A stretch of DNA of 44,660 nt from a bacterium (GTDB taxonomy: Bacteria; UBP15; UBA6099; JAJRTR01), in assembly GCA_024278215.1 (NCBI GenBank), contig JAJRTR010000197.1, positions 1-44,660 on the forward strand, written 5' to 3'. Shown in pieces: positions 5,427-43,394 of the stretch. The notes below the pieces were generated by a model. The model worked only from the letters and a program-made list of their open reading frames with translations, ran no database searches and was not told the DNA's origin. Each line of letters opens with the position of its first letter. The stretch's first letter is position 1. The position numbers and the translations under genes were made by a program.

Positions 5427-5472
5427 ATACATCCCTGGCAAAGCATCTTCAGTAATGCTCATTAGACAATGG

Positions 5473-5501: not shown

Positions 5502-5556
5502 ACAGAAAAATCCTATTAAAAACTATGAAATTTACAACTTTGAGCGTAATCTCCGA

Positions 5557-6705
5557 TCATGAAGGCCTGGCCAGGACACTGCGCGCGATAACCATTCTCT
5601 GAACTTCGCTTGTGCCTTCGTATATCTCTGTAACTTTAGCGTCGCGGTTGTAGCGCTCGACATCATATTCTTTGCTGTAGCCGTAGCCGCCGTGTATCTG
5701 GACGGCGGTGTTTGCGACTTTTGTGGCGGTTGCGCTGCAATAGAGTTTCGCCATGGCTGCCTCCGCGGAGTACGGCATGCCGGAGTCTTTATACGCGCAG
5801 GCTCTGTAGAGCAGAAGGCGAGCGGCGTCGATCTGCGTCGCCATGTCGGCGAGATAATTCTGTATTGTCTGAAATGAGGAAATCGGTTTTCTGAACTGCT
5901 GTCGTTCTTTCGAGTATTTTACTGCGGCCTCGAACGATGCCTGGGCGATGCCTAGCGCCTGTGCGGCGATGCCGAGCCTGCCGGTGTCAAGTGTTTTAAG
6001 GCCGATCTTCAGTCCGTCACCGCGTTTTCCGAGCAGATTGCCGAGCGGCACACGGCAGTCTTCCATGAAAAGAGACGATACAGGATTGGCTCTCATGCCG
6101 CAGAGATCTTCTATCTCGCCTACCGAATATCCGGGTGTGTCGTTTTCGACAATAAAAACACTTGCAGCGCGTCTCGGGTTATCGGGGTCGGTTACTGCGA
6201 ATATCAGCGCCGTTCCGCACACTCCGCCGTTCGTGACAAATATCTTTGTTCCATTTATTGTATATCCGCCGTTTTCCTCGACAGCGTTCGTTTCCACACC
6301 GCCCGCGTCGGAACCGGCGTTTGCCTCGGTGATGCAGAACGCTCCTATTTTCTCGCCGCGCGCGAGCGGTGGTATGAACTTTTCTTTCTGTTCCTTTGTG
6401 CCGAAAACGTAAAGCGGGTAAACGCAAACGCTGTTGTGGACAGTCACACACAGCCCGATCGCGGCGCACACACGAGAAAGCTCTTCGATGACAATGGCGT
6501 AGCTTATCGTGTCGAGACCCGCACCGCCATATTCCGGCGGCACCTGGAGTCCGAAGTAATTGAGCTTCCCCATTTTCTCGATCACTTCCACGGGGAAGCG
6601 TGCTTCGCGGTCGATTTCCGCCGCGATGGAGCCAAGCTCGGCCTCGGCAAATTCGCGCGTTGTCTTGCGGATCACTTTGTGTTTCATGCAAGGATTGAAG
6701 TCCAA
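5557..6705 (-). CDS. Acyl-CoA dehydrogenase (short-chain/branched type)
   Basis: A full-length 382-residue FAD enzyme that oxidises acyl-CoA to trans-2-enoyl-CoA and passes electrons to electron-transfer flavoprotein. Visible signatures are the FAD/substrate segment AFCITEANAGSDAGG (about 122-136), the C-terminal helices with QIHGGYGYSKEYDVER (about 336-351) and the catalytic base E363 in IYEGTSEVQ. Its position corresponds to Glu368 of short-chain dehydrogenases. The start is TTG at 6705, giving MDF as in many relatives, with GGGG 8 bases upstream; the first ATG (6687) has no ribosome site. No ETF, thiolase or hydratase gene is near, so the pathway (fatty-acid or amino-acid breakdown) is open. 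Confidence 0.92.
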   Translation of the reverse strand: MDFNPCMKHKVIRKTTREFAEAELGSIAAEIDREARFPVEVIEKMGKLNYFGLQVPPEYGGAGLDTISYAIVIEELSRVCAAIGLCVTVHNSVCVYPLYVFGTKEQKEKFIPPLARGEKIGAFCITEANAGSDAGGVETNAVEENGGYTINGTKIFVTNGGVCGTALIFAVTDPDNPRRAASVFIVENDTPGYSVGEIEDLCGMRANPVSSLFMEDCRVPLGNLLGKRGDGLKIGLKTLDTGRLGIAAQALGIAQASFEAAVKYSKERQQFRKPISSFQTIQNYLADMATQIDAARLLLYRACAYKDSGMPYSAEAAMAKLYCSATATKVANTAVQIHGGYGYSKEYDVERYNRDAKVTEIYEGTSEVQRMVIARSVLARPS

Positions 6706-6821
6706 TTTCGTTACCCCGTAAAATCGTTATTATCGTGAACCGACTGCACATTCATGATTATCGCATAAACTTATTATGATAGAAAATAGAATGAAGTAAC
6801 AAGATGAAGAATACAAGTTCC

Positions 6822-6850
6822 TTGAAGAAAAAATGTGCAATTGATAATAT
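6822..6850 (+). promoter_or_regulatory. Probable promoter of hldD
   Basis: TTGAAG (6822-6827), a 17-base spacer and TAATAT (6845-6850). A start near 6857 would give a 45-base leader containing the GGAGG ribosome site of hldD. Confidence 0.45.
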
Positions 6851-6901
6851 AAAACTGCGCAGTTGAAAGTGTGCCGCAACAAAAATGGAGGACACAGTCC
6901 A

Positions 6902-7855
6902 ATGTATATAGTAACAGGTGGAGCGGGTTTCATCGGCAGCCATATAGTCAGGGGCCTTAACGACAGGGGAGTCACGGATATACTTGTTGTCGACGATCTC
7001 AAGAACGGAATGAAGATATTCAATCTCAACGATTGCAAGATGTCGGATTACATGGACGCGGCGGAGTTAGAGTCCATGCTGGACCGTGGCGCGCTAGGTG
7101 GCGACATCACCGCGATACTGCATCAGGGCGCGTGTTCCGACACTATGGAATATGATGGTCGGTATATGATGAAAACGAATTTTACTTTCTCAAAAAAGCT
7201 GCTGCATTTCGCACTCGAAAAAAAGATTCCGTTAGTTTATGCATCAAGCGCTTCGGTGTACGGAGCGAACACGGAGTTCAAGGAAATACCCGCAAACGAA
7301 CACCCGATAAATGTCTACGCGTTCTCGAAACTCGTGTTCGACCAGCATGTCAGAAAGCTTCTCGAAGGCGCTGAGAGCACAGTAGTCGGGCTTCGCTATT
7401 TCAATGTCTACGGTCCGCGGGAGACGCTCAAGGGAAAGATGGCGTCGATGGTTTATCAACTATACAGGCAGGTAAAGGAAACCGGCAGTGCACGACTGTT
7501 CGAGGGAACCGCAGGTTACGGCGACGGCGAGCAGCGGCGTGATTTTATTTACGTCGGCGATGTTGTAGACATCAACCTGCATTTCGCCGATGCCCCCGTC
7601 ACAAAAGGTATTTTCAATGCCGGAACTGGAAAGAGCCGCACGTTCAATGCCATTGCCCGCGCATTTATCAAACAATTCGGTAAGGGAACAATCGAGTATA
7701 TACCGTTCAACAAAACGCTTGAAGGCAAATACCAGAGCTTCACAGAGGCCGACCCCACAGCACTACGCGCCGCTGGGTATAAGAAGGAATTCACGGGGCT
7801 TGAGGAGGGCATCGCAGCCTGTTTCAAAGAATGGGAAGCGGGCAGGGCGATTTGA
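6902..7855 (+). CDS. hldD: ADP-L-glycero-D-manno-heptose 6-epimerase
   Basis: A 317-residue extended short-chain dehydrogenase/reductase that converts ADP-D-glycero- to ADP-L-glycero-manno-heptose for the LPS inner core. The NAD(P) site TGGAGFIGSH is at the N terminus; the active site shows ASSASVYG and YAFSK (Tyr-x3-Lys). RYFNVYGPRE, KMASMVYQL, RDFIYVGDVVDINL and EYIPF closely follow E. coli HldD. The ATG at 6902 has GGAGG 10 bases upstream, so the longer frame beginning at 6863 is not used. No other heptose genes are adjacent. Its presence implies an LPS-type outer membrane. It converges with cheX. Confidence 0.95.
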   Translation: MYIVTGGAGFIGSHIVRGLNDRGVTDILVVDDLKNGMKIFNLNDCKMSDYMDAAELESMLDRGALGGDITAILHQGACSDTMEYDGRYMMKTNFTFSKKLLHFALEKKIPLVYASSASVYGANTEFKEIPANEHPINVYAFSKLVFDQHVRKLLEGAESTVVGLRYFNVYGPRETLKGKMASMVYQLYRQVKETGSARLFEGTAGYGDGEQRRDFIYVGDVVDINLHFADAPVTKGIFNAGTGKSRTFNAIARAFIKQFGKGTIEYIPFNKTLEGKYQSFTEADPTALRAAGYKKEFTGLEEGIAACFKEWEAGRAI

Positions 7856-7903
7856 AACGGATTTCGTGAACCTGTTCCTCAGGGATATGCCTGAACCCGC
7901 ATG

Positions 7904-8386
7904 TTATTCTTTCTTGAATGATTCGGAAACAGCGAGATTCACTTCAAGTTTTCCTGTGGACATATCGAGCGGAATGACGATTGTCTTTATATGCTCCTGG
8001 CAGGATATTTCCATTTGCCTGCCGGTGATAACGGATGGCGGGGTTATGTCGGTAGAGTAACCGGCGTCCGCGAGTCCTATGGTGGCGTTGGCGGTGATCA
8101 TATTCGACATCTCTGCGAGTGCGCTCTGAGCGAATTCGTCGAGCTCAAAGATTTTCTCTTCCATGAGCATGACAGCGGCAATGCCTTTAGCGGTTTCCAC
8201 CGACATAGTGATTACAACCTGACCCGTCAATGCGCCGGTTATACCGACGATGATGGCCACATCGTAAGTCTTATACGGGTACTTGTCTCTAAGAAATATT
8301 TTTCCTTTAGATGGTGCTTCTCCGACTGTGCTTTCGATAATGCTTACAATAGATTTTATAAATGGATTAAGAAATTCCGCTTTCAT
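7904..8386 (-). CDS. cheX: Chemotaxis phosphatase CheX
   Basis: A 160-residue CheX. It removes phosphate from CheY-P; the CheC/CheX/FliY family active site ExxN is present as E92-M-S-N95 in ALAEMSNMITANA, close to the Glu96/Asn99 of Thermotoga CheX. The C terminus ends as a normal CheX domain. The start has AAGGAG 8 bases upstream of ATG 8386. It is the last gene of the chemotaxis cluster, 29 bases after the FapA-REC gene. A second, divergent CheX-like protein is encoded at 12635-13138. Confidence 0.88.
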   Translation of the reverse strand: MKAEFLNPFIKSIVSIIESTVGEAPSKGKIFLRDKYPYKTYDVAIIVGITGALTGQVVITMSVETAKGIAAVMLMEEKIFELDEFAQSALAEMSNMITANATIGLADAGYSTDITPPSVITGRQMEISCQEHIKTIVIPLDMSTGKLEVNLAVSESFKKE

Positions 8387-8415
8387 TATTCTGGCTCCTT
8401 ATAAAGTTGCATTGT

Positions 8416-10200
8416 TCACTTACCGGCGACCCGGTTGATGATTTCCACGACCTTGTCCGGAACAAAAGGTTTGATAATGAAATCTTTCGCGCCGGCGATT
8501 ATGGCGTCCTTGACTTTTTCTTTCTGACCCAGCGCCGAGATCATTATTACATTCGCTTTCGGGTTCATTTTTTTGATAGCTTTAAGAGCTGTAAGCCCAT
8601 CGACATTCGGCATTGTTATGTCCATGGTGACGACATCCGGGTTCAGCTTACTATAAAGCTGGACAGCTATTTTGCCGTCTTCCGCTTCGCCCAGCACATT
8701 GAAATTAGCGTTTTCGAGAATATTCTTGAGTTTGTTGCGCATGAATTTAGCGTCATCGACAACCAGCACGGATTTCTTCTTTTCTTTTGTGCCGACACTT
8801 CTTGTTCTCATCTTGCCTGTCATTTCGTCATAAGAAGAAAGCGCGATGCCGCCGGTGTTTTTGTCTGCCGACAGGGTAGCAAATTTCATCGGTTTCCTTA
8901 TTCGTTCTTTCGACGCGCCGATGTATACGAAACAACCGGGGTGTATGAATTCCTCGCCCTTGACCGTCGCGAACGGGTTCACATGAATACGTGTCTTGAG
9001 CGAAGCGATCTTATTCTGGAGTGTAGATTTATTCGCCTCGAGTTTTGCGGCCATTTTTTTGTAATCTTCGATTTTATCATTCGCCACGGTCCCGGAAGTT
9101 CTCAGGCTTTTACGGATACTCTCGAGTTTGAGAACTATTTCATCGAGTTTTTTCTCCATTTCCGACATTTTGATATAGACATCGTGCTTGTATCCTGCGC
9201 GTAAATAGGTAGCTGTTTCCTTGTCGGTGCCAAGGTGTTTTGCCCTGATCTCATGGTATGCCATGATGTCGCCGCCCATGATTTTTCCTTCACGGGATGT
9301 GCATATTATCATTCCGTTGCTTCTGACTCTGCTGGAAATAATAGCTCTGTCGACAATAACATTTCCGTCTGCTTCGACTTCGGAGTTCTCGATGAATTTT
9401 GCGGATATGCTGCCTTTTGCGATAACAGCACCCTCGTTTCGAGTGATTATACCGCCCTTGACCATGATGTCGCCGTTGGAAATAACTTCGCAGGCCTGCA
9501 CGTTGCCGCCGATTGTGATGTTGCCCTCAGCTTTTACGACAAAGCCGTCCGCGATATTTCCCTTTATGTCCAGTGCGCCTGAAAAGTTTATGTTTCCTGT
9601 CGAGTAATCGACATCGCCGTTGACGACATACACAGGGTCGACGCTTACTTCGCCGTTGACTAATTTCGGAGAGCCGTCCATATCGGCGATCAACCGGGTT
9701 CCGTCTTCCGAGGCCGTCACATTTGCCCCCGCTTTGACGGATACTTCCATTCCCCATTCACCGGGTATTTTTTCACCCTTGACGTTTATGCCCTCTTCGC
9801 CTCTTGTTGCAGGTACTTTATACGCGATGACTTCACCCTTTTTGACGGACTTCACAAGGTTCAATTCGCGCAGGTCGATACGATCGCCGTCGTCTGTCGT
9901 CCGCGATGCCTCGTCTGTATCTTTCCACGTATATGTTACAGTGGCATCCTGTCCGAATCCGGGATTAGTGCCCGCGGCGGCCATGAAGTCGACATGTATC
10001 AATTTGCCTTCTTCAACGAAGGCTTCGATCCTTTCATTGTTGACAATGCCGTGGACTACGCCTGCCGCTTTCAGCGCTTTTTTCACATCAATAACATCGA
10101 CCGGTTTCCCAAAGTCGTCCGGTGGAACGATAAAAGCCACAGCGGACATTTTGTCCTCGGAAATCTCGACGGTTACTATTCCGTCCCTGTTCTCACTCAT
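8416..10200 (-). CDS. FapA (DUF342) protein fused to a C-terminal CheY-like receiver
   Basis: 594 residues. The first 470 are a FapA/DUF342 protein like the one at 2011-3480 (VKKALKAAGVVHGIVNNERI, VPATRGEEGINVKGE, then the Gly-rich solenoid with IKGNIADGFVVKAEGNITIGG and a coiled coil). The last 121 (about 474-594) are a complete receiver: VLVVDDAKF, phospho-acceptor D527 in VTMDITMPNVDG, and the Lys in IIKPF. The start is ATG 10200 with GGAGG 9 bases upstream. The fusion implies that FapA activity, thought to act on flagella or the cell surface, is controlled by phosphorylation, perhaps by the CheA or REC-kinase of the same cluster. That link is inference. About 190 bases separate it from the upstream kinase, so it may have its own promoter. 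Confidence 0.85.
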   Translation of the reverse strand: MSENRDGIVTVEISEDKMSAVAFIVPPDDFGKPVDVIDVKKALKAAGVVHGIVNNERIEAFVEEGKLIHVDFMAAAGTNPGFGQDATVTYTWKDTDEASRTTDDGDRIDLRELNLVKSVKKGEVIAYKVPATRGEEGINVKGEKIPGEWGMEVSVKAGANVTASEDGTRLIADMDGSPKLVNGEVSVDPVYVVNGDVDYSTGNINFSGALDIKGNIADGFVVKAEGNITIGGNVQACEVISNGDIMVKGGIITRNEGAVIAKGSISAKFIENSEVEADGNVIVDRAIISSRVRSNGMIICTSREGKIMGGDIMAYHEIRAKHLGTDKETATYLRAGYKHDVYIKMSEMEKKLDEIVLKLESIRKSLRTSGTVANDKIEDYKKMAAKLEANKSTLQNKIASLKTRIHVNPFATVKGEEFIHPGCFVYIGASKERIRKPMKFATLSADKNTGGIALSSYDEMTGKMRTRSVGTKEKKKSVLVVDDAKFMRNKLKNILENANFNVLGEAEDGKIAVQLYSKLNPDVVTMDITMPNVDGLTALKAIKKMNPKANVIMISALGQKEKVKDAIIAGAKDFIIKPFVPDKVVEIINRVAGK

Positions 10201-22499: not shown

Positions 22500-24290
22500 T
22501 TATTTATCGTTACAGGCGGGAAAAGTCAGAACGAAGGAAGTGCCTTCACCTTTTGTTGATTTGACATCTATTTTTCCATTATTGTTTTTCACAATGCGGA
22601 AGGTTATGGACAGTCCCAGCCCGGTGCCGGCCCTTTTTGTCGTGAAGAACGGGTCGAATATCCGTGACAGGTCTTCTTCGCTTATTCCAGGCCCTGTGTC
22701 ACGGATACGCAACACAACATTATCATTTACCGCATCGCAGGATATGGACAAAGTACCTTTGCCCTTCATTGCCTGCGCGGCATTCAGGGAAATATTCATG
22801 ACGGCCTGAATTATTTCCTTTCTGCTTCCGACAATAAACGCTTTGCTTGAGAAATCCGCAATATTAACATCGACATACTTCATTATTTTGTGAAACATAA
22901 GGATTCGCAAGGCTTCTTTTACTGCTTCTGCTACATCGACAACTTTCTTTTCAACACCGCCGGGACGCGAGAAGTCCAGGAGTTCCCTGATTGTCGAATC
23001 GATGAACCCGACTTCTTTATCAAGTTCAATGATGTAGTGGTCGAATTTTTCGGGCGGAGCGTTCCGCAGCAGTTGGAGATATCCGGATATGGCGGCGAGA
23101 GGATTCCCTATTTCATGGGCGACCCCGGCGGCGAGTTCACCAATGGCGGCGAGTTTTCCCGACTCGATAAGCTGCTCCTGGTTGAGCCTTATTTCCTCGT
23201 CGCGCCTCTCCAGCGCTTTTCCCATCCTGTTGAAGCTTTTCGCCAGTCTGCTGAATTCATCTTTTCCCGTTTCCGGGATTCTGTGCGCAAAATCACCGGT
23301 TTCGATACGGCTGACGCCTTCGGCCAGATCATCGAGCGGCTCGACGATTCTTCTTGACATCGAAGCGCTCGCGAGAACTGAAAACGCGAAGGCCAGCACG
23401 GCGATCAGTGCGATGGCGAGGAGACCGCTCTCCTGGATTTCGGAGATTCTCGATTTCGGATAGATCGTGATCAGGTAGGCGACATGCCTCTGTCCGCTTG
23501 TGATGGGTGTGCGGCCCACAAGATAGTCTTTATCAAGATACTCGCCGGGCGAAAGCTGCGCTTCATTTGTAATCTCGAAAGTTGCTGAAATAATGGTGCC
23601 GCGATATTCGACAGCGGTTTCCGTTCCTGTCAGAGATCGTATTTTCTCGACAAAACGTTCGTCGAGATAGTTGCCGATACGCACATAGCCCGAAGGCGCA
23701 GTCCTGGCTGAGGCAGTGTCGCTGCAAGCCTCGTCGATGTCTCTGTATCCGCATGTGCTTTCGTCGGAAAAAACAGGAGCCACAGCTACCGCGGCGATCC
23801 TGCCGGGAAAAACAGGTTCGATACCGGCCGCCGCTGTTTTGGTGCTTTCGGCATTCTGGAATGACGGATACAAAAAAAGAGGCTCGGTTTCCGCGAGTTC
23901 CGCGTCAATATCTTCATAATCGAACCTTGTCGCGTGACGCAGCACAACACCGTCTTTGCCCGCGATAGAAATAAAATCCGCTCCGAGCGAGTCGATCTGT
24001 TTTTTCAATTCCGCCTGTGTAATCTCTCTGCCGTCCTTACCCAGAGAAGTTTTAATAAAATAATCATTCGACATCAGCCTTGAGAGTAACGCGGCATCCA
24101 GAATGTTTTGCCTGATGATGTTGCGCGCAAGCAGGGAAGCACGTTCCATTTCGTTGCGTGCTTCGGATTCCAGGTATCTTGATGTGAAAACAAAAAAAGC
24201 GACGCCTGTAAAAATGACAACGCCAAGCACAACGGCGGCATGGGCCGACATGAGTTTGCCGAAAAGGGACGTTGTTCTATTATTCAACAT
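22500..24290 (-). CDS. Membrane sensor histidine kinase
   Basis: About 596 residues: membrane helix 1 (about 15-36), a periplasmic sensor of about 250 residues (Cache-like, with a Cys-containing loop CGYRDIDEACSD), membrane helix 2 (about 289-311), HAMP (RRIVEPLDDLAEGVSRIETGDF), HisKA with H392 in AAGVAHEIGNPLAAISGY, and HATPase (MNISLNAAQAM, DTGPGIS, GTGLGLSI). ATG 24290 overlaps the stop of the upstream lipoprotein gene by 11 bases; ATG 24326 is possible but overlaps more. No response regulator is next to it; a receiver elsewhere must be its partner. Co-transcription with the solute-binding lipoprotein suggests that protein feeds it a signal. Confidence 0.9.
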   Translation of the reverse strand: MLNNRTTSLFGKLMSAHAAVVLGVVIFTGVAFFVFTSRYLESEARNEMERASLLARNIIRQNILDAALLSRLMSNDYFIKTSLGKDGREITQAELKKQIDSLGADFISIAGKDGVVLRHATRFDYEDIDAELAETEPLFLYPSFQNAESTKTAAAGIEPVFPGRIAAVAVAPVFSDESTCGYRDIDEACSDTASARTAPSGYVRIGNYLDERFVEKIRSLTGTETAVEYRGTIISATFEITNEAQLSPGEYLDKDYLVGRTPITSGQRHVAYLITIYPKSRISEIQESGLLAIALIAVLAFAFSVLASASMSRRIVEPLDDLAEGVSRIETGDFAHRIPETGKDEFSRLAKSFNRMGKALERRDEEIRLNQEQLIESGKLAAIGELAAGVAHEIGNPLAAISGYLQLLRNAPPEKFDHYIIELDKEVGFIDSTIRELLDFSRPGGVEKKVVDVAEAVKEALRILMFHKIMKYVDVNIADFSSKAFIVGSRKEIIQAVMNISLNAAQAMKGKGTLSISCDAVNDNVVLRIRDTGPGISEEDLSRIFDPFFTTKRAGTGLGLSITFRIVKNNNGKIDVKSTKGEGTSFVLTFPACNDK

Positions 24291-24888
24291 AATCGTGATA
24301 TAACCGGGCGAAGATGCCTGTTTCATTTAAATAAATCAGTATTTCAACGACTGCGGCCGACAATTCAGGGCCGCCCTGTTCAGAAACGCAAAGTGTTTTC
24401 CAGCCCTCCACGCCGGTGAAAAAATATTTTATCCTTCTGCCGCCCTCGCAGTCCTGTGTCTCTCCTGTAAGGAACATAACGTCGAATTTGTCGTGCCAGT
24501 CGCTATTCTTAGATTTGTTTACTTCGCCTGCCATTACGATATTTGTTTTAACTTCAAGAACGGAAGAAATCTCATTGGCGAGCGAGGGATTGAAACCGGC
24601 GGGCAACCCGAACCGGGGATCAGGATATTGGAAAGGCTTTTCCGTTGCGGGCAACGCTACCCTCAATACTCCGCGCGCGCGCACCTCTTTCAGCCTTCCG
24701 GCATCAGGTATCTGCGAAAGAACTCTGCGTGATATCCGGCCCATCACTTCCTTCTGGATTGTTTCCGGCGCATCGGATTGCGCTCCGGATGAGGATTTAT
24801 TGCCGGATATGTCGGCGCAACTCGCAATTATTGCAGAGATGCACACCGCGCACAACATAATCAATATATGTTTTCCATATCTATTCAT
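24280..24888 (-). CDS. Periplasmic solute-binding (family 3-like) lipoprotein
   Basis: 202 residues. Signal peptide with lipobox IIASC, a Ser/Gly-rich linker, then the first lobe of a family 3 solute-binding fold (VRARGVLRVALPATEKPFQYPDP, GFNPSLANEISSVLEV) and a shortened second lobe ending IYLNETGIFARLYHDYVE. It is smaller than usual (about 250 residues), so ligand binding may differ. ATG 24888 overlaps the stop of the TPR gene by 4 bases (ATGA); the longer open frame to 25062 is a shadow of that gene. There is no ABC permease nearby, so it is more likely a sensor subunit for the kinase than a transporter part. Confidence 0.75.
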   Translation of the reverse strand: MNRYGKHILIMLCAVCISAIIASCADISGNKSSSGAQSDAPETIQKEVMGRISRRVLSQIPDAGRLKEVRARGVLRVALPATEKPFQYPDPRFGLPAGFNPSLANEISSVLEVKTNIVMAGEVNKSKNSDWHDKFDVMFLTGETQDCEGGRRIKYFFTGVEGWKTLCVSEQGGPELSAAVVEILIYLNETGIFARLYHDYVE

Positions 24889-26048
24889 TCCGATTTTAAT
24901 ATCCACAGAAATTTGGGGTTGTCCGAAAGCCAGCCGAAATCGGAGTCGTTCTTTAACCGTACAATCATCGGGCGGCCTCCCCACTCGACAGCCTTTCCCG
25001 CATACTCGACAGCTTCCGTGCCTTTCTTCATTCTGGAATATATCGCGGCTATTTCGTACCATGTTTCAGCAAGTGAAGGATCGATATCCACTGCTGTAAG
25101 GAAGATGTCCACTGCTTTCGAGTACTCAAAAGTTTTGCTGTAAAGCAATCCGAGTTGATGGTAGTATTCAGGGTTGCCGCTGTCGATATCGATTGCCTTC
25201 TTCAGTTGATGTTCGGCAGCCCCGTACTTCCGCGAAAGGAAATCCGTGAAGCCTGACCAGAAATATGCTCTTGGGTCGGACGGTGCAGTCTCGGCAACTG
25301 ATTTAAACTTTGCCTCAGCTTTACTAAGTTCTGTCTTTTCCAGGTAGATTCTGCCGATCAGGATGCTGGGTTCAATGTAATTCTCATCAGAACTCTCGGA
25401 TTCCCGTGCCAGGATGAGCGCCTTTTGCGTTTCGTTATTCTCATAAGCATAAAGTGCTTTCCAGTACTTCACATAAGCCTCATTATTGTCGGTACCGACG
25501 ATTGAAACATCATCCGGTTCCGGTAATTTCACATCAATTGCAGCGCTGATATTTCGTGCCAGTAATGTTTGCGCTTCAGCAATTGAGAATTTCTTTATAT
25601 TGAAGGAAATGTCATCAATAATTCCCGTATCCGGATTTATAAGTGTGCCGATGAAAGAAAAACCGGTTCTTGTCTGTTCGAGTCGACCTTCTATCAGAGC
25701 CGAAGCGCCCAGAAACTGCCTTAAAGCATCTTTAGTTTCAAATGATAGAGAAACCTTTTTTCCACGGTTCCATCTGTTGGCCAATCGCCGTAGCTGCTCG
25801 CGCGGCATTGCCCTGTATGAGCCAGTTCTGTTGATGAGCTTTATCGAGTAGTCTGTAAGAGCTAGCGCCGCCCACGGCTGATCTAAACCTGCTTCCGACA
25901 CATAATCGAAAACGACTATATCCACTCTCGCCCGCGCGGTTGCTGTCGACGCGAGAAAAACAGACAGCACAAAATATAGAAGTGATGTCACTTTACATAC
26001 GTGTACAATATTTGTGACGACATCTTTATGGATATTGCACTTTTTCAT
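24885..26048 (-). CDS. Exported TPR protein with CsgG/TolB-like N-terminal domain
   Basis: 387 residues. Signal peptide (hydrophobic LLYFVLSVFLASTATARA), then a domain beginning VDIVVFDYVSEAGLDQPWAALALTDYSIKLI, which resembles the nucleotide-free CsgG/TolB-N type fold used to generate or sense envelope components. The C-terminal half has about five TPR-like helical pairs (YIEPSILIGRIYLEKTELSKAEAKF, PEYYHQLGLLYSKTFEYSKAVDIF, AETWYEIAAIYSRMKKG). ATG 26048 has AAAGG about 9 bases upstream. It is the first gene of a three-gene cassette with the solute-binding lipoprotein and the sensor kinase. Confidence 0.75.
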   Translation of the reverse strand: MKKCNIHKDVVTNIVHVCKVTSLLYFVLSVFLASTATARARVDIVVFDYVSEAGLDQPWAALALTDYSIKLINRTGSYRAMPREQLRRLANRWNRGKKVSLSFETKDALRQFLGASALIEGRLEQTRTGFSFIGTLINPDTGIIDDISFNIKKFSIAEAQTLLARNISAAIDVKLPEPDDVSIVGTDNNEAYVKYWKALYAYENNETQKALILARESESSDENYIEPSILIGRIYLEKTELSKAEAKFKSVAETAPSDPRAYFWSGFTDFLSRKYGAAEHQLKKAIDIDSGNPEYYHQLGLLYSKTFEYSKAVDIFLTAVDIDPSLAETWYEIAAIYSRMKKGTEAVEYAGKAVEWGGRPMIVRLKNDSDFGWLSDNPKFLWILKSE

Positions 26049-26186
26049 CAACGAAACCTTTGTTGACATGGACTTGCCGTTATATGTAGTTTAATGAACG
26101 GCTCCGATGCTGTCTTATCATCGTTCCCAGGGTCTACCCTGTGAACGTCGAAACTGAAAGCGCCGGCTTTCTCAATAAAAGTTTTT

Positions 26187-26283: not shown

Positions 26284-27267
26284 TCATTTACAGATATTGA
26301 TTATCTCATTCACCGGGGTTTCCTTTCCGGCTTGAATCCTGAGTTCGAAACAACTTGCGGAGGATGCGATGTTATCACAACGCAGCAAATACCTTTCGTA
26401 GTCAGCCTCGATCAGGGGCGTTCTGTGCAGGTTCAATAACTTCAGAACAGCTTTCTTTTTACTTAATGAAATAATACCATGTCGCGCTTGCATAATCGAA
26501 GGAAAAAATACAAAATCAACACAGGCGGCGACGCAGTCCGGCGGCGGCGACATGAAAAGCCCTTCGTGAAAGTAAGTAAAACCCTTAGCGAGCAGCCTGC
26601 CGCCGCATTTCTCCGAAAGGTCGGCAGCGTTAAGTAATTCCGAATTTCTTAATAGCATAGGTGTGTGTTTGTCGAAGCCGACGGCGGCGGAATCGTCCGA
26701 CATATACTCTGCATCGTTCTCGAGCATTGCCCTCATCAGAGTCGATTTCCCGCTCATGTTTTCACCGCAAAACATAATACCTTTGCCGTCGTATATCACG
26801 CTGGAAGCGTGAATGAACAATATGTTTTTTGATTTCATTACATGCCCGATAAAAGAAGTAATTGCAGAGAAAAACACTTCCGCCGGGTTGTCCGGAGGCA
26901 CGCCCGGTAGTTCGATCGTACACCTGTGTGTCTCCATATCGCACATCATAACAATATCACCCGTCGCCCCGCGAAGGGGTATGCAGATATTATCATCGCC
27001 GGGCAACGGCAACTCTTCATCGTCGGTTTCCAGAAATTCGAGAGAAAAAACACTTTCATTACTATTATCGTCCGCAGGCAGTATTCTATTGCCGTAATGC
27101 AGCTTAAGACAATGCTCGAGGAAATTGCCGCGGACGGAGCAGAAACGAAGAACAACGCCGAACAGATGGAGGTCGAAACTATTCCTGTCGCCGATGCGTG
27201 AATAAATGTCGTGGGTTGCAGTCTCTATCGTTCTGGTCCTATCGTGCAGTCTTGAGCCTGGCGGCAA
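26284..27267 (-). CDS. HprK-like kinase (P-loop) of the RiPP-like cluster
   Basis: Up to 327 residues, related to HPr kinase/phosphorylase. The Walker A loop is GENMSGKST (about 168-176), preceded by ILFIHASSVIYDGKGIMFCG, and the acidic segment MSDDSAAV follows. The rest has family-like strands but lacks the full HprK signature. Such kinases occur in lasso peptide clusters, where they phosphorylate the precursor, and as HprK-related kinase A next to PqqD-like proteins in exopolysaccharide regions. The gene overlaps the radical SAM gene upstream by 29 bases. No ATG is available near the start: TTG 27267 is one option, and a later unusual start cannot be excluded. It is the last gene of the cluster. 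Confidence 0.75.
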   Translation of the reverse strand: MPPGSRLHDRTRTIETATHDIYSRIGDRNSFDLHLFGVVLRFCSVRGNFLEHCLKLHYGNRILPADDNSNESVFSLEFLETDDEELPLPGDDNICIPLRGATGDIVMMCDMETHRCTIELPGVPPDNPAEVFFSAITSFIGHVMKSKNILFIHASSVIYDGKGIMFCGENMSGKSTLMRAMLENDAEYMSDDSAAVGFDKHTPMLLRNSELLNAADLSEKCGGRLLAKGFTYFHEGLFMSPPPDCVAACVDFVFFPSIMQARHGIISLSKKKAVLKLLNLHRTPLIEADYERYLLRCDNIASSASCFELRIQAGKETPVNEIINICK

Positions 27268-28753
27268 TCGAATTGAATCCCTTATACAGCGGCTTCATAA
27301 TACGGTGCTCGAGGGCGGGCGACACGAAAAAAAGAATCCTCGAACAAAGTGACGCAACGGCCCAGGCCAACTTGCGAAGTCCCATCTTCCAGCCGTCACC
27401 CTGTATCGCATGGCGCGTAGAAAGTGGAAACCTGCAAAGGTAATTTCTTGTTTTCGCCGAATAGTTGAAAAAATTTCTCTCAAGAAAAGGGTTCCTTGAT
27501 TGCAACCACCGGAAAAGCGGTCGGCCCGGCTTCTCGACAGCTTCCAGGTAGTCCTCCAGCCACCATTCTGTAAATCCGTATTCACGGTGATAGTCATTGT
27601 ACAGTTGTGTGCCGGGAAACGGTATCGGCACAAAAACTATAAAGGATGCTTTTTCCCGAAATTTATCCATGAAGTCGAGATTGTTTTGAAAATGCCTCGG
27701 GCCTTCCCAGGGCAGGCCGGTTATGAAATACCCGCTAACATTTATTCCCGCGTCAGAACACAGCCGTATCGCTTGCTCGTTCTGCTCGGAGCATATTCTT
27801 TTCCGCAACATTTTCAGAGTATCGTCGTTGGCGCTTTCCATGCCGATAAAGATATCCGTGCAGCCCGCGGATTTCATCAAGGCAAGTGTTTCTTCATCGA
27901 GATGATCGGTCCTGGCCATGCACTTCCAGTGAAACGGCCTCTTCCCGGCGAGCTTCGTCATTCTATCGCAGAGGCTGCGGACGAGTTCAATATTCTCAAG
28001 GAAAGATGAATCGATGAAATGCAGGTTTGCTATCGAGTGGTTGGTGACAGCATCTTCGATCTCGCTGAAAACACTTTCTTCCGATCTGTATCTCACGCCC
28101 CGGTTGAGATGTCTTTCAACGCAGAAAGTACATTTGCGGAAACAGCCCCTGCTGAGCAGTAAAATCAGCAGGCGATCGTCGGCATCGCCTGTCTCTGAAT
28201 AGAAACGATTCGACGGAGGTGGAAGATCGTCGATATCTTCAACATAAGACGCGCGCCCGATGTATCTCGAACCATCTTCGGAACGCCAGGCGATACCGCT
28301 CATTCCGGCAGGCGATTTCCCTTCACGCCAGCGCAGGATAAGTTCCTTGAATGTTTCCTCTCCGTCCCCGATCACGGCAGCGTCGAAACCGGCGTCGAGA
28401 ACCTCGCCGGGCAGCAGGGTGGCGTGCAATCCGCCGGCGACAAGCTTTGCTTCCGGCAGTGCGGAGCGTACCAGTTTAAGAAAATCATAGGCGTAGAGAA
28501 TATTCAGACTTGTATTCAGGGAAAAGCCAACAACATCCGGGCTTAGCTGCTTGATTCTACTGATCAAACGGCGTGCACCCGAGTCGAAATCAAGGCATGG
28601 TTCGTCCAGCAATTCCGTGCCGATGCCGGCTGCTCTGAGACTGGATATAACATAACCGGCACCAAGAGAATAGCTCAGACCTTTACCTGGATAAGGGGGG
28701 ATAATGATCAGGGTTTCTTGTTTGTCGGATTCCACTTTTTCGATAGCGGGCAT
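27239..28753 (-). CDS. B12-binding-type radical SAM protein
   Basis: 504 residues. An N-terminal B12-binding-like Rossmann domain (IIIPPYPGKGLSYSLGAGYVI, PDVVGFSLNTS, VAGGLHATLLPGEVLD, AAVIGDGEETFKEL) is followed by a radical SAM barrel with the 4Fe-4S motif C204-x3-C208-x2-C211 and GMESANDDTLKMLRK, typical of the B12/Elp3-like branch. The cobalamin lower-ligand motif DxHxxG is not visible, so cobalamin may bind base-off. Reactions in this family include C-methylation and oxidative rearrangements. The C-terminal 100 residues are basic and partly hydrophobic. It lies 94 bases after the peptide gene, behind a hairpin, and before the HprK-like kinase; this context suggests peptide or polysaccharide modification. 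Confidence 0.82.
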   Translation of the reverse strand: MPAIEKVESDKQETLIIIPPYPGKGLSYSLGAGYVISSLRAAGIGTELLDEPCLDFDSGARRLISRIKQLSPDVVGFSLNTSLNILYAYDFLKLVRSALPEAKLVAGGLHATLLPGEVLDAGFDAAVIGDGEETFKELILRWREGKSPAGMSGIAWRSEDGSRYIGRASYVEDIDDLPPPSNRFYSETGDADDRLLILLLSRGCFRKCTFCVERHLNRGVRYRSEESVFSEIEDAVTNHSIANLHFIDSSFLENIELVRSLCDRMTKLAGKRPFHWKCMARTDHLDEETLALMKSAGCTDIFIGMESANDDTLKMLRKRICSEQNEQAIRLCSDAGINVSGYFITGLPWEGPRHFQNNLDFMDKFREKASFIVFVPIPFPGTQLYNDYHREYGFTEWWLEDYLEAVEKPGRPLFRWLQSRNPFLERNFFNYSAKTRNYLCRFPLSTRHAIQGDGWKMGLRKLAWAVASLCSRILFFVSPALEHRIMKPLYKGFNSIAARLKTAR

Positions 28754-28792
28754 GTAATGATGATCCCGGGTCCATTTTTAAAACAAATACAA

Positions 28793-28813
28793 CAACACAA
28801 AACACTTGTGTTG
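28793..28813 (-). terminator. Hairpin between peptide gene and B12 radical SAM gene
   Basis: On the minus strand, CAACACAA, a 5-base loop and TTGTGTTG form a perfect 8-bp stem, followed by a T-rich tract (TTGTATTTGTTTT). It lies about 35 bases after the stop of the peptide gene. It may be a partial terminator or mRNA-protecting hairpin that raises the amount of peptide mRNA over downstream enzyme mRNA, as is common in RiPP operons. Confidence 0.5.
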
Positions 28814-28847
28814 CGGCAGCTGTTTGTAACAGGAAAGCGAAGCAGGC

Positions 28848-29009
28848 CTACTTATCGGCGTCCTTTGCCATAGCAGCCTTGCACGACGGCCCACTGTATA
28901 CGTCTTTAACAGTCCCGTATTTTGTCAGGGTCGGTTTGACAAACAATTTTTTGCCATTTTCAAAATGATCGGCACTACCTGTCTGCGAGCAGTTCTTTTT
29001 CTTTTCCAT
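28848..29009 (-). CDS. Putative RiPP precursor peptide with lasso-type leader motif
   Basis: 53 residues, starting at ATG 29009 with an excellent ribosome site (GGAGG, 6 bases upstream) inside the last codons of the radical SAM/SPASM gene, which it overlaps by 35 bases. The peptide has a basic N terminus, then F23-x2-P26-x-L28-x3-G32 with YGTV (31-34). This is the YxxPxLxxxG leader signature bound by PqqD-like recognition proteins in lasso-type RiPPs. The putative core follows V34: DVYSGPSC and then KAAMAKDADK, with one Cys (C43), Tyr and several Lys. The usual Thr before a lasso core is Tyr38 here, and no lasso cyclase is encoded nearby. That it is a modified peptide is inference from motif and neighbours. 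Confidence 0.7.
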   Translation of the reverse strand: MEKKKNCSQTGSADHFENGKKLFVKPTLTKYGTVKDVYSGPSCKAAMAKDADK

Positions 29010-30051
29010 TCCGCACCTCCTTTTCCATGAAAGTGTTGACGATTCTGCAAACTTCGCGCGGCGCGGAGAAAATATTTCCGTGTTCATACAGACCCAGTCC
29101 CGGGCACGGCCTGCATTTCGGAAAATGGTTGCAGCCTGCGCATTCAAATTGTTTGACTTTCATATTACGTATTTCTTTCAGCGCGTTCGAGTTGCGCCAC
29201 AAATCACCGAAAGAGGATTCTCTTATATTTCCGGCCGGAATATCGACCAGCGAGCAGGGCAGCAAGTCTCCATGGCTTGTGATGTAACCGGTGGTTCGCC
29301 CCATTGTGCACCATGACTCGATCGTATTGTCAGGCAGATAATCTTCGGGATCGACTTTACCGAAATCTGCCGCGAAAGTTTCCCACGGCCGGGGCAATTC
29401 CCTGAAAACCGATTCTGGCAACCTGTATTTCAGTGGCGAATTGTCTCCATTTTCCCTTGGCAGAATTATCGAATAGAACTGGTGCCTGACCCCTAACTTC
29501 CCGCAGAGTGCTTCAATGGCGTCACACTCTGAATGATTTACCGTCATCAGGAGTGTGGAAGCTTCGGGATGCAAGCGGGCTTCCGCCAGTCTTTCAAGCG
29601 CACTTATTGTTTTTGCAAAGCTTCCCGGTGTCCGGGTGACTTTTTCGTGAATCCGCTTTTCAGCGCTGTAGAGACTAACGGCGACTGCCTTGATCTTTTC
29701 CGGTCGCTGCGAAAGCATGTCGATGATTCGGTCTGTCAGCAAAACTCCGTTTGTCTGGAGCGTTAGCGGAAAGTCCGAATCGAGCAATATCTCAAGGATC
29801 TCATATATTCTCGGATGAGTCAGGAACTCGCCACCGGTGAGATTCAGGTGAAAAACCCCTGCCTCTTTCATCTCCGGCAATATTTTCTTATAGTCTTCCG
29901 GTTGCAACTCGTTTTCGATATTTGTATTGCATTTGAGCACACAATGGACACAATTGAGATTGCAGCGTCTTGTGACTTCGATCTGGATGCGCACAGGACT
30001 GCTTTTTCGTGACAGGTATTTGAATAACTCTTCGCGTTTTTTTCTTATCAT
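28975..30051 (-). CDS. Radical SAM/SPASM peptide-modifying enzyme
   Basis: 358 residues. The radical SAM motif C30-x3-C34-x2-C37 (RRCNLNCVHC) is followed by GGEFLTHP and a barrel with LQTNGVLLT. The C-terminal SPASM region has a Cys series (WCTMGR, LLPCSLVD, FECAGCNHFPKCRPCPG and EVCRI) that can bind extra 4Fe-4S clusters. This is the PqqE/ranthipeptide-type architecture used for peptide crosslinking or modification. It overlaps pqqD by 4 bases (ATGA) and the peptide gene by 35 bases, so the three are translationally coupled, which favours the encoded peptide as substrate. Confidence 0.88.
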   Translation of the reverse strand: MIRKKREELFKYLSRKSSPVRIQIEVTRRCNLNCVHCVLKCNTNIENELQPEDYKKILPEMKEAGVFHLNLTGGEFLTHPRIYEILEILLDSDFPLTLQTNGVLLTDRIIDMLSQRPEKIKAVAVSLYSAEKRIHEKVTRTPGSFAKTISALERLAEARLHPEASTLLMTVNHSECDAIEALCGKLGVRHQFYSIILPRENGDNSPLKYRLPESVFRELPRPWETFAADFGKVDPEDYLPDNTIESWCTMGRTTGYITSHGDLLPCSLVDIPAGNIRESSFGDLWRNSNALKEIRNMKVKQFECAGCNHFPKCRPCPGLGLYEHGNIFSAPREVCRIVNTFMEKEVRNGKEKELLADR

Positions 30052-30341
30052 AAAGCGCGATCAACTTCAGTAATCAGATTTTCTGCACACAGATCGTCAA
30101 GCAATTCTTGCACCTGGCTCTCAACATCATGCGCACAACAGTCATAATCATTTTGAAGAACTTCGATTATATCCTCGATTACGCATATATCGCCAAGTAA
30201 TCGCCATATCTCGGTTCCTGTTTCATTCAGACTGTAGTATACCCCTGATTTAAGATTCAAAAGCACAGCCTCGCCGTTGATTATCCGTTCGACACAATCT
30301 TTGCTCCTGGTCCATCGTTTCTTTTTCGCATTAATCATCAT
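30048..30341 (-). CDS. PqqD-family peptide chaperone (RiPP recognition element)
   Basis: 97 residues with the PqqD fold: VERIINGEAVLLNLKSGVYYSLNETGTEIWRLL, then helices ending in CAENLITEV. PqqD-like proteins bind the leader of a precursor peptide and deliver it to a radical SAM partner. It is encoded directly before that enzyme with a 4-base overlap. ATG 30341 and ATG 30338 are both possible starts. It is likely the first or second gene of the RiPP-like operon. Confidence 0.9.
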   Translation of the reverse strand: MMINAKKKRWTRSKDCVERIINGEAVLLNLKSGVYYSLNETGTEIWRLLGDICVIEDIIEVLQNDYDCCAHDVESQVQELLDDLCAENLITEVDRAL

Positions 30342-30637: not shown

Positions 30638-30713
30638 TTAAAATTAGTCGAAATACCCGACAGATAAAAAATACTTCGATTTTCATCTTTAACAGAAAAT
30701 GGAGGCACAAATA

Positions 30714-31661
30714 ATGAATAAGGCGTTTTTAAAAATCTTTTCAGCAACGCTGGTGTTTTTGTCTGCATTTGTGATGATTCACACTGACAATTCATTGTGC
30801 GTTGATAAAAGTAATTTCAAACTTGATACCGGCGATGAAATAATGGTACGAATTCCAGTCGAGCCCAAATTCAGCGGTAAATACGTAATTGACGAACAGG
30901 GACAGTTTTTCCTTCCGCTGATAGAGGGAATTGAATTGGGAGCATTTGTGGCAAAGGGCAAAACCATAAGTGAAATCGAAAAAATACTAAGTGACCGGCT
31001 TAGCGAGTACTTCATACAAACCGAAGCAACCGTATCACTGGTAAGCATGGGGATCAGACCCGGCAGATCGGTATCTGTGATAGGAGAAGTTTTCAGACCC
31101 GATAACTTTAACTTTTATGACGGATTCACCCTTGTTGACGCTATTATAAAATCTGCAAATGTCAAACCTAATGCCGACATAAGCAATATTGTGGTGCAAA
31201 GGAGAGGTTCTCCCCCGATCAATATAGACGCGAGAAATATTCTTAATGGAACAGACATGACAAACAACATTTTACTGAAGGCCGGCGACTATGTAATTGT
31301 GCCTGGTATGACATCGCACATGCAAATAAAAATAGTTGTTCTTGGAATGGTTAGTGATCCCGGAAGCTACACACTGCCGGAAGGTTCGCAGGTAATCGAC
31401 GCGATATCAGCCGCCCAGGGAACCATCGGAAGAGCGGGTATCGGAAAGTCGTACATCATCAGGTCCGTAAATGGAAGGCCAACGGTTATACACACAGATT
31501 TAAAAGCGTTGATACAGAGAGCCGATTTGAAGGAAAATGTGGAATTAATGGATGGCGATATCGTATTTGTGCCCGAATCATCAGGTTACGACATAATGAA
31601 CAAAGTGTCCGATATACTCAACCTTAATCTACTGAAAAACATCATAAAAGACGATTTTTGA
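30714..31661 (+). CDS. Polysaccharide export protein (Wza-like, SLBB domains)
   Basis: 315 residues. Signal peptide (FLKIFSATLVFLSAFVMI), then a Poly_export domain (LDTGDEIMVRIPVEPKFSGKYVIDEQGQFFLPLIEGI) and two SLBB-type segments (VSVIGEVFRPDNFNF, IVVLGMVSDPGSYTLPEGSQVIDAI). It should form part of the periplasmic or outer-membrane channel for polysaccharide release. There is no Cys at the signal cleavage site, so it is not a typical lipoprotein Wza. ATG 30714 has GGAGG 8 bases upstream, so the ATG at 30699 is not used. A larger SLBB protein (34279-35862) lies downstream. Confidence 0.85.
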   Translation: MNKAFLKIFSATLVFLSAFVMIHTDNSLCVDKSNFKLDTGDEIMVRIPVEPKFSGKYVIDEQGQFFLPLIEGIELGAFVAKGKTISEIEKILSDRLSEYFIQTEATVSLVSMGIRPGRSVSVIGEVFRPDNFNFYDGFTLVDAIIKSANVKPNADISNIVVQRRGSPPINIDARNILNGTDMTNNILLKAGDYVIVPGMTSHMQIKIVVLGMVSDPGSYTLPEGSQVIDAISAAQGTIGRAGIGKSYIIRSVNGRPTVIHTDLKALIQRADLKENVELMDGDIVFVPESSGYDIMNKVSDILNLNLLKNIIKDDF

Positions 31662-40913: not shown

Positions 40914-43394
40914 ATGTCGGACATCAGCAGAAATGAAGATCGAAGTAGTGAAATTACGGAAGTAACAAGTGATGTAGTAAGCGATATGTTTTCGGAACTT
41001 ATAGAAGTTGACAGTGAGCAGAAAGCAGCTCCAAAGAAAAAGAAGAAAACGAAAGTGAAGAAGAAATCTGCAAAAAACGACCGGAGGAAATCGCCGGAAA
41101 AGGGGGAATTGAAAGAGGCTTCCGCATGTGCCGAGGATTTAAAGCCGAAGATAACAGCCAACGCAATGCGTGTGCTCGAGCGCCGCTATCTGAAAAAGGA
41201 CGAAAACAACAGGGTATGTGAGGAACCTGCTGAAATGATGAGGCGTGTGGCGCACAACATCGCGTCGGCCGATGTGCTGTATAATCCACATGCGAATGTG
41301 AAGGAAACGGAAGAGAAGTTTTACAGGATAATGGCGGCACTGGAATTTGTGCCGAATTCACCGACGTTGATGAATGCGGGAAGGGACCTCCAGCAGCTTT
41401 CCGCGTGTTTTGTTCTGCCGGTAGACGATTCGATGGAAGACATCTTCGACACGGTGCGAAACACCGCGCTGATCCACAAGTCAGGCGGCGGCACGGGATT
41501 CAGTTTCTCGAGGCTGCGCCCGAAGAACTCGCGTGTCAGGTCTACCCGCGGCGCATCGAGCGGCCCTGTTTCTTTCATGCAGGTGTTCAATGCCGCCACA
41601 GAAGTCATCAAACAGGGAGGAACACGCCGGGGCGCCAATATGGGTATCCTGCGCATCGACCATCCCGATATAATGGAATTCATAGAATGCAAGAAGGATA
41701 CAAAAAAACTAAATAATTTCAATATTTCAGTGGGAATCACCGACAAGTTCATGAAGGCGGTCAAAAGCGGCTCGAAATTTGATCTTGTAGACCCCCGCAA
41801 CGGACAGACGACGGCGGAACTGGATGCAAGAAAGGTATATCGAAAAATCATCGAGATGGCCCACAAAAACGGTGAGCCGGGTGTCGTGTTTCTGGATGTA
41901 ATCAACAAGTTTAATCCGACACCGCATGTGGGAGAAGTGGAAAGCACCAACCCGTGCGGAGAACAGCCTCTGTTACCTTATGAGTCGTGTAATCTCGGCT
42001 CGATAAATCTTTCATGTATGGTGAAAAACGGAGAGATAGATTATCCGAAACTGAAACATGTCGTTCATGCTTCGACACATTTTCTGGACAACGTGATCGA
42101 CATGAACAGGTATCCTATCGACAAGATCGACGCCATGACGAAAGCTAACAGGAAGATCGGGCTGGGTGTGATGGGATTCGCTGATATGCTGGTCCAGATG
42201 GGAATTTCTTACAACTCCGAAGACGCTGTAGATACAGCCGAGAGTGTCATGCGGTTCATACAGGTCGAATCGAAAAAGGCATCTGCGGAACTCGCGGCAT
42301 CGCGCGGCGCGTTTCCGAATTTCGAAGGCAGCGCTCTCGACATTCCCGGTGTTCCGAAAGTGCGCAATGCCACAACAACGACTATTGCACCTACCGGCAC
42401 TATTTCCATTATTTCAGGCTGTTCCAGCGGGGTCGAACCATATTTCGCTGTTTCCTACGTCAGGACGGTGATGGACAAAGACGAGTTGGCGGAGGTTAAC
42501 CCCTACTTCGAGAAAATAGCAAAGGAACGTGGATTCTATTCTGAAGAACTGATGAAACGCATTGCGAAAAAAGGTACGATCAAAGACTTCGAAGAGATTC
42601 CGCAGGAAGTCCGAGACTTGTTTGTAACATCCATGGACATCACGCCCGAGGACCATATCCGGATACAGGCAGCTTTCCAGAAATATACAGACAACGCTGT
42701 ATCCAAGACGGTGAACTTTCCGGCGGATGCGACAGTAGATGAAGTGGAACAAGTGTACAATATGGCTTATGAAAGCGGCTGCAAGGGGATCACAATCTAC
42801 AGGTACGGCAGCCGCGACGAGCAGGTGCTGACATTTGCGAAAGAAGAAAAAAGCGGGCGGGAAAAAACAGCGGCAGCCGTAGATGTAAAGACCGTAACGG
42901 CGCAACCGCGTGAAAGACCGTCGGTCACATTCGGTCGCACAGAACGTATACGCACCGGTTGCAGCAACCTTTATGTCACGCTCAATTCCGATGATAACGG
43001 GCTTTGCGAGATTTTTATGCAGATGGGAAAAGCCGGTGGATGCGCAGCGGCTCAGTCCGAGGCGATCTCAAGGCTGATCTCGTTGTGTCTCAGGTCCGGG
43101 ATCGAGATGGAAAAAATAAGAAAACACCTCAGGGGTATACAGTGCCACATGCCGACGTGGGAAAACGGGTCTATGATCCGCAGTTGCCCGGATGCACTTG
43201 CGATAGTGCTCGAGAGACACAGTCGCTGGATGGAAGCCGACAAGAATGCCGGCAGGAGTACACACACGAAAATCGAGAGGTCCGGCAAAGACCTTCTGAA
43301 TCTTGTCGGGTCATGTCCACAGTGCGGCGGCCCGGTCGAACATTCCGAGGGCTGCCCGAAGTGCAGAATCTGTTCGTGGTCTAACTGTACATAA
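40914..43394 (+). CDS. nrdJ: Vitamin B12-dependent (class II) ribonucleotide reductase
   Basis: 826 residues. It reduces ribonucleotides to deoxyribonucleotides using adenosylcobalamin, with or without oxygen. Signatures: NSPTLMNAG near the start of the barrel; SCNLGSINLS preceded by NPCGEQPLLPYE, with the finger-loop Cys; IAPTGTISIISGCSSGVEP; and a C-terminal redox tail with CPQCGG, CPKC and CSWSNC. The N-terminal 60 residues are low-complexity and Lys-rich (PKKKKKTKVKKKS). AGGGG stands 8 bases before ATG 40914. Regulation by NrdR is suggested by the boxes upstream. It is a single-gene transcript. Confidence 0.95.
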   Translation: MSDISRNEDRSSEITEVTSDVVSDMFSELIEVDSEQKAAPKKKKKTKVKKKSAKNDRRKSPEKGELKEASACAEDLKPKITANAMRVLERRYLKKDENNRVCEEPAEMMRRVAHNIASADVLYNPHANVKETEEKFYRIMAALEFVPNSPTLMNAGRDLQQLSACFVLPVDDSMEDIFDTVRNTALIHKSGGGTGFSFSRLRPKNSRVRSTRGASSGPVSFMQVFNAATEVIKQGGTRRGANMGILRIDHPDIMEFIECKKDTKKLNNFNISVGITDKFMKAVKSGSKFDLVDPRNGQTTAELDARKVYRKIIEMAHKNGEPGVVFLDVINKFNPTPHVGEVESTNPCGEQPLLPYESCNLGSINLSCMVKNGEIDYPKLKHVVHASTHFLDNVIDMNRYPIDKIDAMTKANRKIGLGVMGFADMLVQMGISYNSEDAVDTAESVMRFIQVESKKASAELAASRGAFPNFEGSALDIPGVPKVRNATTTTIAPTGTISIISGCSSGVEPYFAVSYVRTVMDKDELAEVNPYFEKIAKERGFYSEELMKRIAKKGTIKDFEEIPQEVRDLFVTSMDITPEDHIRIQAAFQKYTDNAVSKTVNFPADATVDEVEQVYNMAYESGCKGITIYRYGSRDEQVLTFAKEEKSGREKTAAAVDVKTVTAQPRERPSVTFGRTERIRTGCSNLYVTLNSDDNGLCEIFMQMGKAGGCAAAQSEAISRLISLCLRSGIEMEKIRKHLRGIQCHMPTWENGSMIRSCPDALAIVLERHSRWMEADKNAGRSTHTKIERSGKDLLNLVGSCPQCGGPVEHSEGCPKCRICSWSNCT

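Follow-up and report, generated by a model that had tools for sequence, protein, structure and literature searches.

The stretch of DNA analysed here (the window; 44,660 nucleotides, contig JAJRTR010000197.1 of GCA_024278215.1) is contig 175 of a 4.55 Mb, 95% complete assembly from the candidate phylum UBP15. At positions 26284-30341 it carries, all on the minus strand, a cassette of five genes for a PqqD-like recognition element (RRE) of ribosomally synthesized and post-translationally modified peptides (RiPPs), a radical S-adenosylmethionine (SAM)/SPASM enzyme, a 53-residue peptide, a B12-binding radical SAM enzyme and a kinase of the HprK/PEPCK fold. The five open reading frames (ORFs) of a preliminary description of this DNA were all recovered where it had placed them, and its proposal of a RiPP cassette with an RRE-SPASM pair and an HprK-like kinase was supported. 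The features of the cassette are as follows.

30048-30341, minus strand: PqqD-like RiPP recognition element, 97 residues (PF05402, 5e-16), in 7/7 UBP15 genomes
28975-30051, minus strand: radical SAM/SPASM enzyme, putatively peptide-modifying, 358 residues (PF04055 and PF13186)
28848-29009, minus strand: precursor peptide, 53 residues, MEKKKNCSQTGSADHFENGKKLFVKPTLTKYGTVKDVYS plus GPSCKAAMAKDADK with predicted cleavage between them (7/7 genomes, purifying selection, ribosome-binding site)
28893-28943, minus strand: putative RRE-binding stretch of the leader, F23 to S39, YxxPxLxxxG pattern, -17 to -1 (sequence; spacing rule of PMC10368454)
28851-28892, minus strand: predicted core GPSCKAAMAKDADK, with Ser3 as predicted phosphosite and Cys4 as predicted SPASM target (spacing)
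27239-28753, minus strand: B12-binding radical SAM enzyme, accessory, 504 residues (PF02310 and PF04055)
26284-27267, minus strand: HprK/PEPCK-fold kinase, 327 residues (AlphaFold2 model, Foldseek match to PEPCK, conserved columns)

Among the 7 UBP15 species' genomes sampled, the window's included, the order PqqD-SPASM-peptide was kept in 7/7, and the kinase gene lay downstream of the peptide in all 6 genomes with a contig reaching it. The peptide gene, which overlaps the 3' end of the SPASM gene and has AGGAGGT upstream of its ATG, was found in exactly one copy per genome, directly after the SPASM gene; the preliminary description had named relatives lacking the peptide as the finding that would speak against it, and when such relatives were looked for, every genome turned out to have kept it. 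Between lineages, synonymous substitution was far in excess of nonsynonymous (pS 0.62-0.88 vs. pN 0.05-0.30, e.g. 0.79 vs. 0.05), and judged by this pattern the peptide ORF is a real coding sequence under purifying selection. At 46-67% identity the peptide is better conserved than PqqD (32-44%) or the kinase (22-28%), with KK, KP, LT, YGT, KDVY, GPSC and a C-terminal DK invariant in all seven peptides. Given that leader and core are nearly constant across the phylum, the product would have one conserved job rather than that of a diversifying antibiotic, suggesting a physiological role.

The leader follows the pattern F/YxxPxLxxxGx5[Y]xG, reading F23xxP26xL28 in the window and having Tyr for Phe in the other 6 genomes. 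Counted from the predicted cleavage site, position -2 is Tyr (Tyr38) in 7/7 peptides and not the Thr found at -2 in lasso leaders (Ile in BsfA). The lasso-type leader of the preliminary description thus holds for pattern and spacing but not for the NCBIfam lasso leader model NF033521, which gave 12.2 bits against a cut-off of 19. In lasso precursors YxxPxL occupies -17 to -12 (PMC10368454), and applying this spacing to the peptide gives a leader ending in ...FVKPTLTKYGTVKDVYS and a core GPSCKAAMAKDADK that starts at Gly40, in which Gly1, Ser3 and Cys4 (Cys43) are invariant in 7/7. BsfK and LppK, both HprK-like kinases, are proven to phosphorylate core Ser3, BsfK with assistance from the RRE (PMC10368454, PMC13381572); because the core start was set by leader spacing alone, the agreement with the published phosphosite is independent.

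The kinase itself matched no Pfam family above threshold, and its matches to the NCBIfam models for HprK-related kinases A and B were weak. A sequence search of solved structures returned largely P-loop noise, with HprK at E 0.02, and a fold prediction was therefore made. The AlphaFold2 model (38-row alignment; pLDDT 86.5, pTM 0.85) matched PEPCK in Foldseek (E 7e-11, TM about 0.5), and as modelled the fold is that of a PEPCK/HprK-type P-loop kinase. The motif H...G-x(4)-GKS...DD comprises H153, G168, G173, K174, S175, D191 and D192, with the same spacing as H148, G163, G168, K169, S170, D186 and D187 of BsfK (PMC10368454). Only the middle Gly of the P-loop is replaced, this column holding Met in the window (M171), Gly in four relatives and Glu in one (G002).

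With respect to the remaining enzymes, PqqD found its best NCBIfam match in lasso_PqqD_Bac, at 60.7 bits under a cut-off of 80. The SPASM enzyme (Radical_SAM 4e-23, SPASM 8e-10) is 41-53% identical in the 6 relatives, with C30, C34, C37 and seven more Cys residues invariant. The B12 enzyme (B12-binding 4e-19, Radical_SAM 3e-19), which in NCBIfam resembles enzymes of lipid and cofactor pathways (BchE, HpnJ, ladderane), stands in the cassette of only 2/7 UBP15 genomes, those of the window and of G005, where it lies at a contig edge, and is an optional member. The five-gene order described at first is thus kept in relatives as PqqD-SPASM-peptide(-kinase) but without the B12 enzyme in most of them, and the idea that the two radical SAM enzymes always go together had to be abandoned. 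B12-binding radical SAM homologues as a group are strongly expanded, with 40 in the window genome (4.5 Mb) and 22-38 in each UBP15 relative.

A second PqqD in the window genome (L038, G000:C115:31000-50000, 7295-10114, minus strand) is followed by an ATP-grasp-like ORF and a LysA-type decarboxylase-like ORF, as we read their domains from sequence; the latter has the N-terminus MKMLYEKPVIKRLRTGLMNKYGNS..., which looks like a leader-like YxKP motif fused to an enzyme. In addition, a SPASM paralogue (about 36% identity) occurs in six genomes with none of PqqD, kinase or peptide adjoining it, and was therefore rejected as a second copy of the cassette. In the window genome (G000:C170, L033, 8582-9643; 36%) it adjoins what appear from sequence to be a response regulator and a histidine kinase, with orthologues in five relatives; in three loci of relatives (L035-L037) it is followed by an ORF resembling a metallo-beta-lactamase-fold protein. 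Near the paralogue in these same loci lies a ribonucleotide reductase gene (66% identity), which in the window is found at 40914-43394, downstream of the exopolysaccharide (EPS) genes.

Related cassettes are not confined to UBP15. When 84,980 genomes were scanned with the SPASM alignment, at least 80 loci came up, and in a 124-protein SPASM tree (FastTree, midpoint root) PqqD and/or the kinase adjoined the gene in 61 of 74 rows of the half holding UBP15 vs. 2 of 50 in the remaining half. In at least seven further phyla (Chloroflexota, Omnitrophota, Nitrospirota, Aminicenantes, Aerophobota, Thermodesulfobacteriota and Bdellovibrionota) the SPASM gene is directly followed by a small ORF whose YxxP leader is rich in Lys, mostly in the order PqqD-SPASM-peptide-kinase, the homologues being very distant. 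Among 19 such peptides, chosen by the YxxP motif and not by Cys, 18 have a Cys at exactly Tyr+20 (L065 being aligned on its second YxxP), as do all UBP15 peptides, in which this residue is Cys4; it is the sole core residue common across phyla. These distant peptides are much more variable than the UBP15 set and have three Cys, and 13/19 end in Ser, a candidate site of kinase action by analogy with paeninodin; in the UBP15 peptides the core has a single Cys, and Ser3 in place of the C-terminal Ser, and this is their main difference. Some Nitrospira cassettes (L079, L087, L092, L111) comprise three SPASM-type radical SAM proteins with PqqD and kinase, and in L087 and L092 the cassette genes include a peptide of the form KKPYTSPQL / KKPYSMPQL...AILSAC...DSGPRAS.

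We surmise that the locus makes a RiPP with one conserved role, by leader-guided action of the SPASM enzyme at Cys4, phosphorylation by the kinase at Ser3 and cleavage before Gly1, a reading to which we give a probability of roughly 0.6. The RRE would bind the F/Y-x-x-P-x-L motif of the leader and present the precursor to the two enzymes that modify the core. The SPASM enzyme would most likely act at the invariant Cys4, perhaps joining it by a thioether or comparable C-S bond to the core's C-terminal half, which ends in the invariant Asp-Lys; the HprK-like kinase would most likely phosphorylate Ser3; and removal of the leader would release GPSCKAAMAKDADK or a derivative, with the B12 enzyme possibly adding a further modification in some species. 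The same cassette could also act on other sites, such as Tyr or Lys of KDVY for the SPASM enzyme and Thr or another residue for the kinase, with the leader perhaps staying attached, given that KDVY is as conserved as GPSC and that the cassette has no peptidase. We hold this to be distinctly unlikely in view of the Tyr+20 Cys being the only shared core residue and of the precedent for Ser3 in two systems.

Another reading is that the peptide serves the SPASM enzyme as raw material for a small molecule or redox cofactor, in the manner of pyrroloquinoline quinone or mycofactocin, with most of the peptide being discarded and the kinase serving the cofactor pathway. Extreme conservation in one copy per UBP15 genome, resembling that of cofactor precursors, speaks for it, as do the 114.7 bits that the SPASM enzyme scores against the model of the mycofactocin maturase, a high value though under the cut-off of 265; however, no dehydrogenase or peptidase of known cofactor systems adjoins the cassette, the core's C-terminal half differs within UBP15 (AAMAKDA, AIMEAEA, GTLGSTT) and the peptides of other phyla vary far more. 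We therefore regard a cofactor as unlikely, and return to a RiPP modified at Cys4 and Ser3.

A lasso cyclase was found neither in the window nor in the rest of the 95% complete assembly, in keeping with what had first been noted for the cluster: three Asn-synthase genes begin with MCGI, which we read as a glutaminase-type N-terminus, and one further match is QueC-like. These genes bear on the possibility that a lasso pathway has degenerated or been split, with its cyclase sitting elsewhere in the genome and a phosphorylated lasso peptide as its product. The leader pattern and spacing, the lasso-like PqqD, an unlinked B2-type peptidase, the kinase type common to lasso clusters (cyclase-peptide-kinase in G370) and a Glu at core position 9 in four relatives all favor such a pathway; nonetheless it appears highly improbable to us, because every Asn-synthase match is of the above two types, the window core has its acidic residues at positions 11 and 13 and none at 7-9, with Asp13 alone invariant, and the SPASM enzyme is present in 7/7.

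The preliminary description had also found no leader peptidase, which is true of the cassette but not of the genome, where a stand-alone lasso-B2-type protein (C171) scored 36.8 bits with NF033537 (cut-off 33) and keeps Cys and His. All six relatives have it at 44-52% identity, G002 as a short stretch at a contig edge. Two genomes from a different lineage (G112 and G248) have a PqqD-B2-SPASM-peptide-kinase operon, after which comes the gene for a large membrane protein, O-antigen-ligase-like by our reading; the G248 operon (L151, G248:C1:158000-169000, 3594-8960; likewise L150 in G112) has a 51-residue peptide, KYIKPVLTKYEKVRDVTTATVALEGTASAADCTLTRC..., and its own B2-type peptidase, and is cyclase-free. 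As these operons join a B2 peptidase and a SPASM enzyme, B2-type cleavage of a SPASM-modified peptide is plausible, and by this analogy we infer that C171 may remove the leader of the UBP15 peptide.

The genes surrounding the cassette are conserved as well.

24885-26069, minus strand: exported TPR protein, conserved co-directional neighbor (TPR domains; 37-39% identity in 4 relatives)
24280-25062, minus strand: SBP_bac_3-like small lipoprotein, true start probably an internal ATG (weak PF00497, 0.0046; 33-39% identity in 4 relatives)
22500-24326, minus strand: sensor histidine kinase, conserved neighbor (HAMP, HisKA, HATPase_c; about 46% identity in 4 relatives)
30699-31661, plus strand: SLBB polysaccharide export protein, divergent and back to back with the cassette (PF02563/PF22461; adjacent in 5/5 relatives with a contig that far)

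The TPR, SBP3-like and histidine kinase genes lie downstream of the cassette in the same direction in five UBP15 genomes, and in G002 the beginning of the TPR gene is present. Kinase and TPR genes overlap in the f2 relatives, suggesting that cassette and TPR gene form one operon. The identity of these genes, as read from their domains, suggests sensing, and the product might be a signal that they read. On the other side the SLBB gene stands back to back with the cassette in 6/6 genomes with sequence there, window included, as had been proposed for the export gene. This divergent neighborhood, SLBB(-FtsB-S1), is the one observation that suggests a link of the product to surface polysaccharide; in the UBP15 relatives the cassette is not accompanied by Wzz/Wzx or by the window's other EPS genes.

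The SLBB gene, along with the likeness of the B12 enzyme to BchE, HpnJ and ladderane enzymes, would also agree with radical SAM enzymes and kinase acting on a surface polysaccharide or lipid, the small ORF being regulatory or structural. We find this very unlikely, since PqqD, the YxxP motif and the joint conservation of peptide and enzymes in many phyla accord with peptide substrates, the B12 enzyme is optional and the wider EPS operon is not kept beside the cassette. For the peptide product itself we speculate, tentatively and as a possibility on the unlikely side, that it is a phylum-wide UBP15 signal or surface factor with a radical-modified Cys4 and a phospho-Ser3, derived from a cyclase-free offshoot of lasso pathways in which SPASM replaced the cyclase, and sensed by the TPR, SBP and histidine kinase proteins to control polysaccharide export.

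Several points weigh against a RiPP modified at Cys4 and Ser3 and cleaved before Gly1: 1) we infer the chemistry of the modification steps; 2) in the window kinase a Met (M171) stands where the P-loop motif has its middle Gly; 3) the SPASM tree is a FastTree with a midpoint root; 4) the peptides of the distant relatives contain three Cys and mostly end in Ser, with the prediction of Ser3 resting on two published analogies; 5) the leader has Tyr and not Thr at -2, leaving B2-type cleavage there unproven, and the peptidase is unlinked; 6) the second PqqD system (C115) could be the alternative partner of that peptidase; 7) the cassette encodes no exporter.

Compared with known systems, HPr-rel-A (HprK_rel_A plus PqqD_rel_X) shares the pairing of kinase and PqqD, SPASM and peptide being extra in the window; its models gave 22.7 of 200 bits for the kinase (TIGR04352) and 17.4 of 35 bits for PqqD (TIGR04353). 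SynChlorMet (HprK-like ScmC, PqqD ScmD, SPASM proteins ScmE/ScmF; TIGR04248-04251) likewise encodes a kinase-like protein together with PqqD and SPASM in a single cassette, with two SPASM proteins vs. one in the window. The ScmC model matches 28/38 aligned kinases of the cassette class but not the window kinase, and the window proteins are far under the cut-offs (ScmD 26.5 of 100, ScmF 93.6 of 400); kinase and PqqD were rejected as members of either system on these scores. Sactipeptides and ranthipeptides (PapB, AlbA, StsB type) share a SPASM maturase and a Cys-containing core, whereas the window maturase is far below their cut-offs, a kinase is present and a thioether is predicted only. In the open-access literature we found no paper combining SPASM with HprK, nor any under the terms SynChlorMet or RRE with HprK.

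The class of linear polyphosphorylated peptides (LPP), found mainly in Bacillota, has already established the pairing of RRE and HprK without a cyclase (PMC13381572), and shares the YxxP leader, core Ser3 and frequent location in polysaccharide loci. It differs in having a signal-peptidase-type (SpI) leader peptidase, an NTP transferase and an MsbA-like exporter, families absent among the annotated cassette neighbors, and in having no radical SAM enzyme in its core set. Phosphorylated lasso peptides (paeninodin, BsfA) share YxxPxL at -17 to -12, a PqqD-type B1, an HprK-like kinase with the same motif spacing and, in BsfA, Gly1 and Ser3, in contrast to which the UBP15 cassette lacks a cyclase, has Tyr for Thr at -2 and an unlinked B2-type peptidase, and has SPASM in place of macrolactam formation. 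The verdict of the preliminary description, that the combination is unlike the classes it could name, was thus too strong, because LPP is published, PqqD-SPASM-peptide-HprK cassettes are widespread and SynChlorMet is a named relative. By their defining features the cassette falls outside lasso peptides, SynChlorMet, HPr-rel-A and LPP, yet it works like a blend of them, with SynChlorMet, LPP and phosphorylated lasso peptides as the nearest named systems. It unites three RiPP toolkits known apart, the lasso-type leader with B2-type peptidase, the HprK-like peptide kinase and the SPASM radical SAM enzyme, in a single conserved operon. Cassettes of the type PqqD-SPASM-peptide-kinase occur in many phyla and keep the distance from Tyr to Cys constant; both modification sites can thereby be predicted exactly and put to the test.

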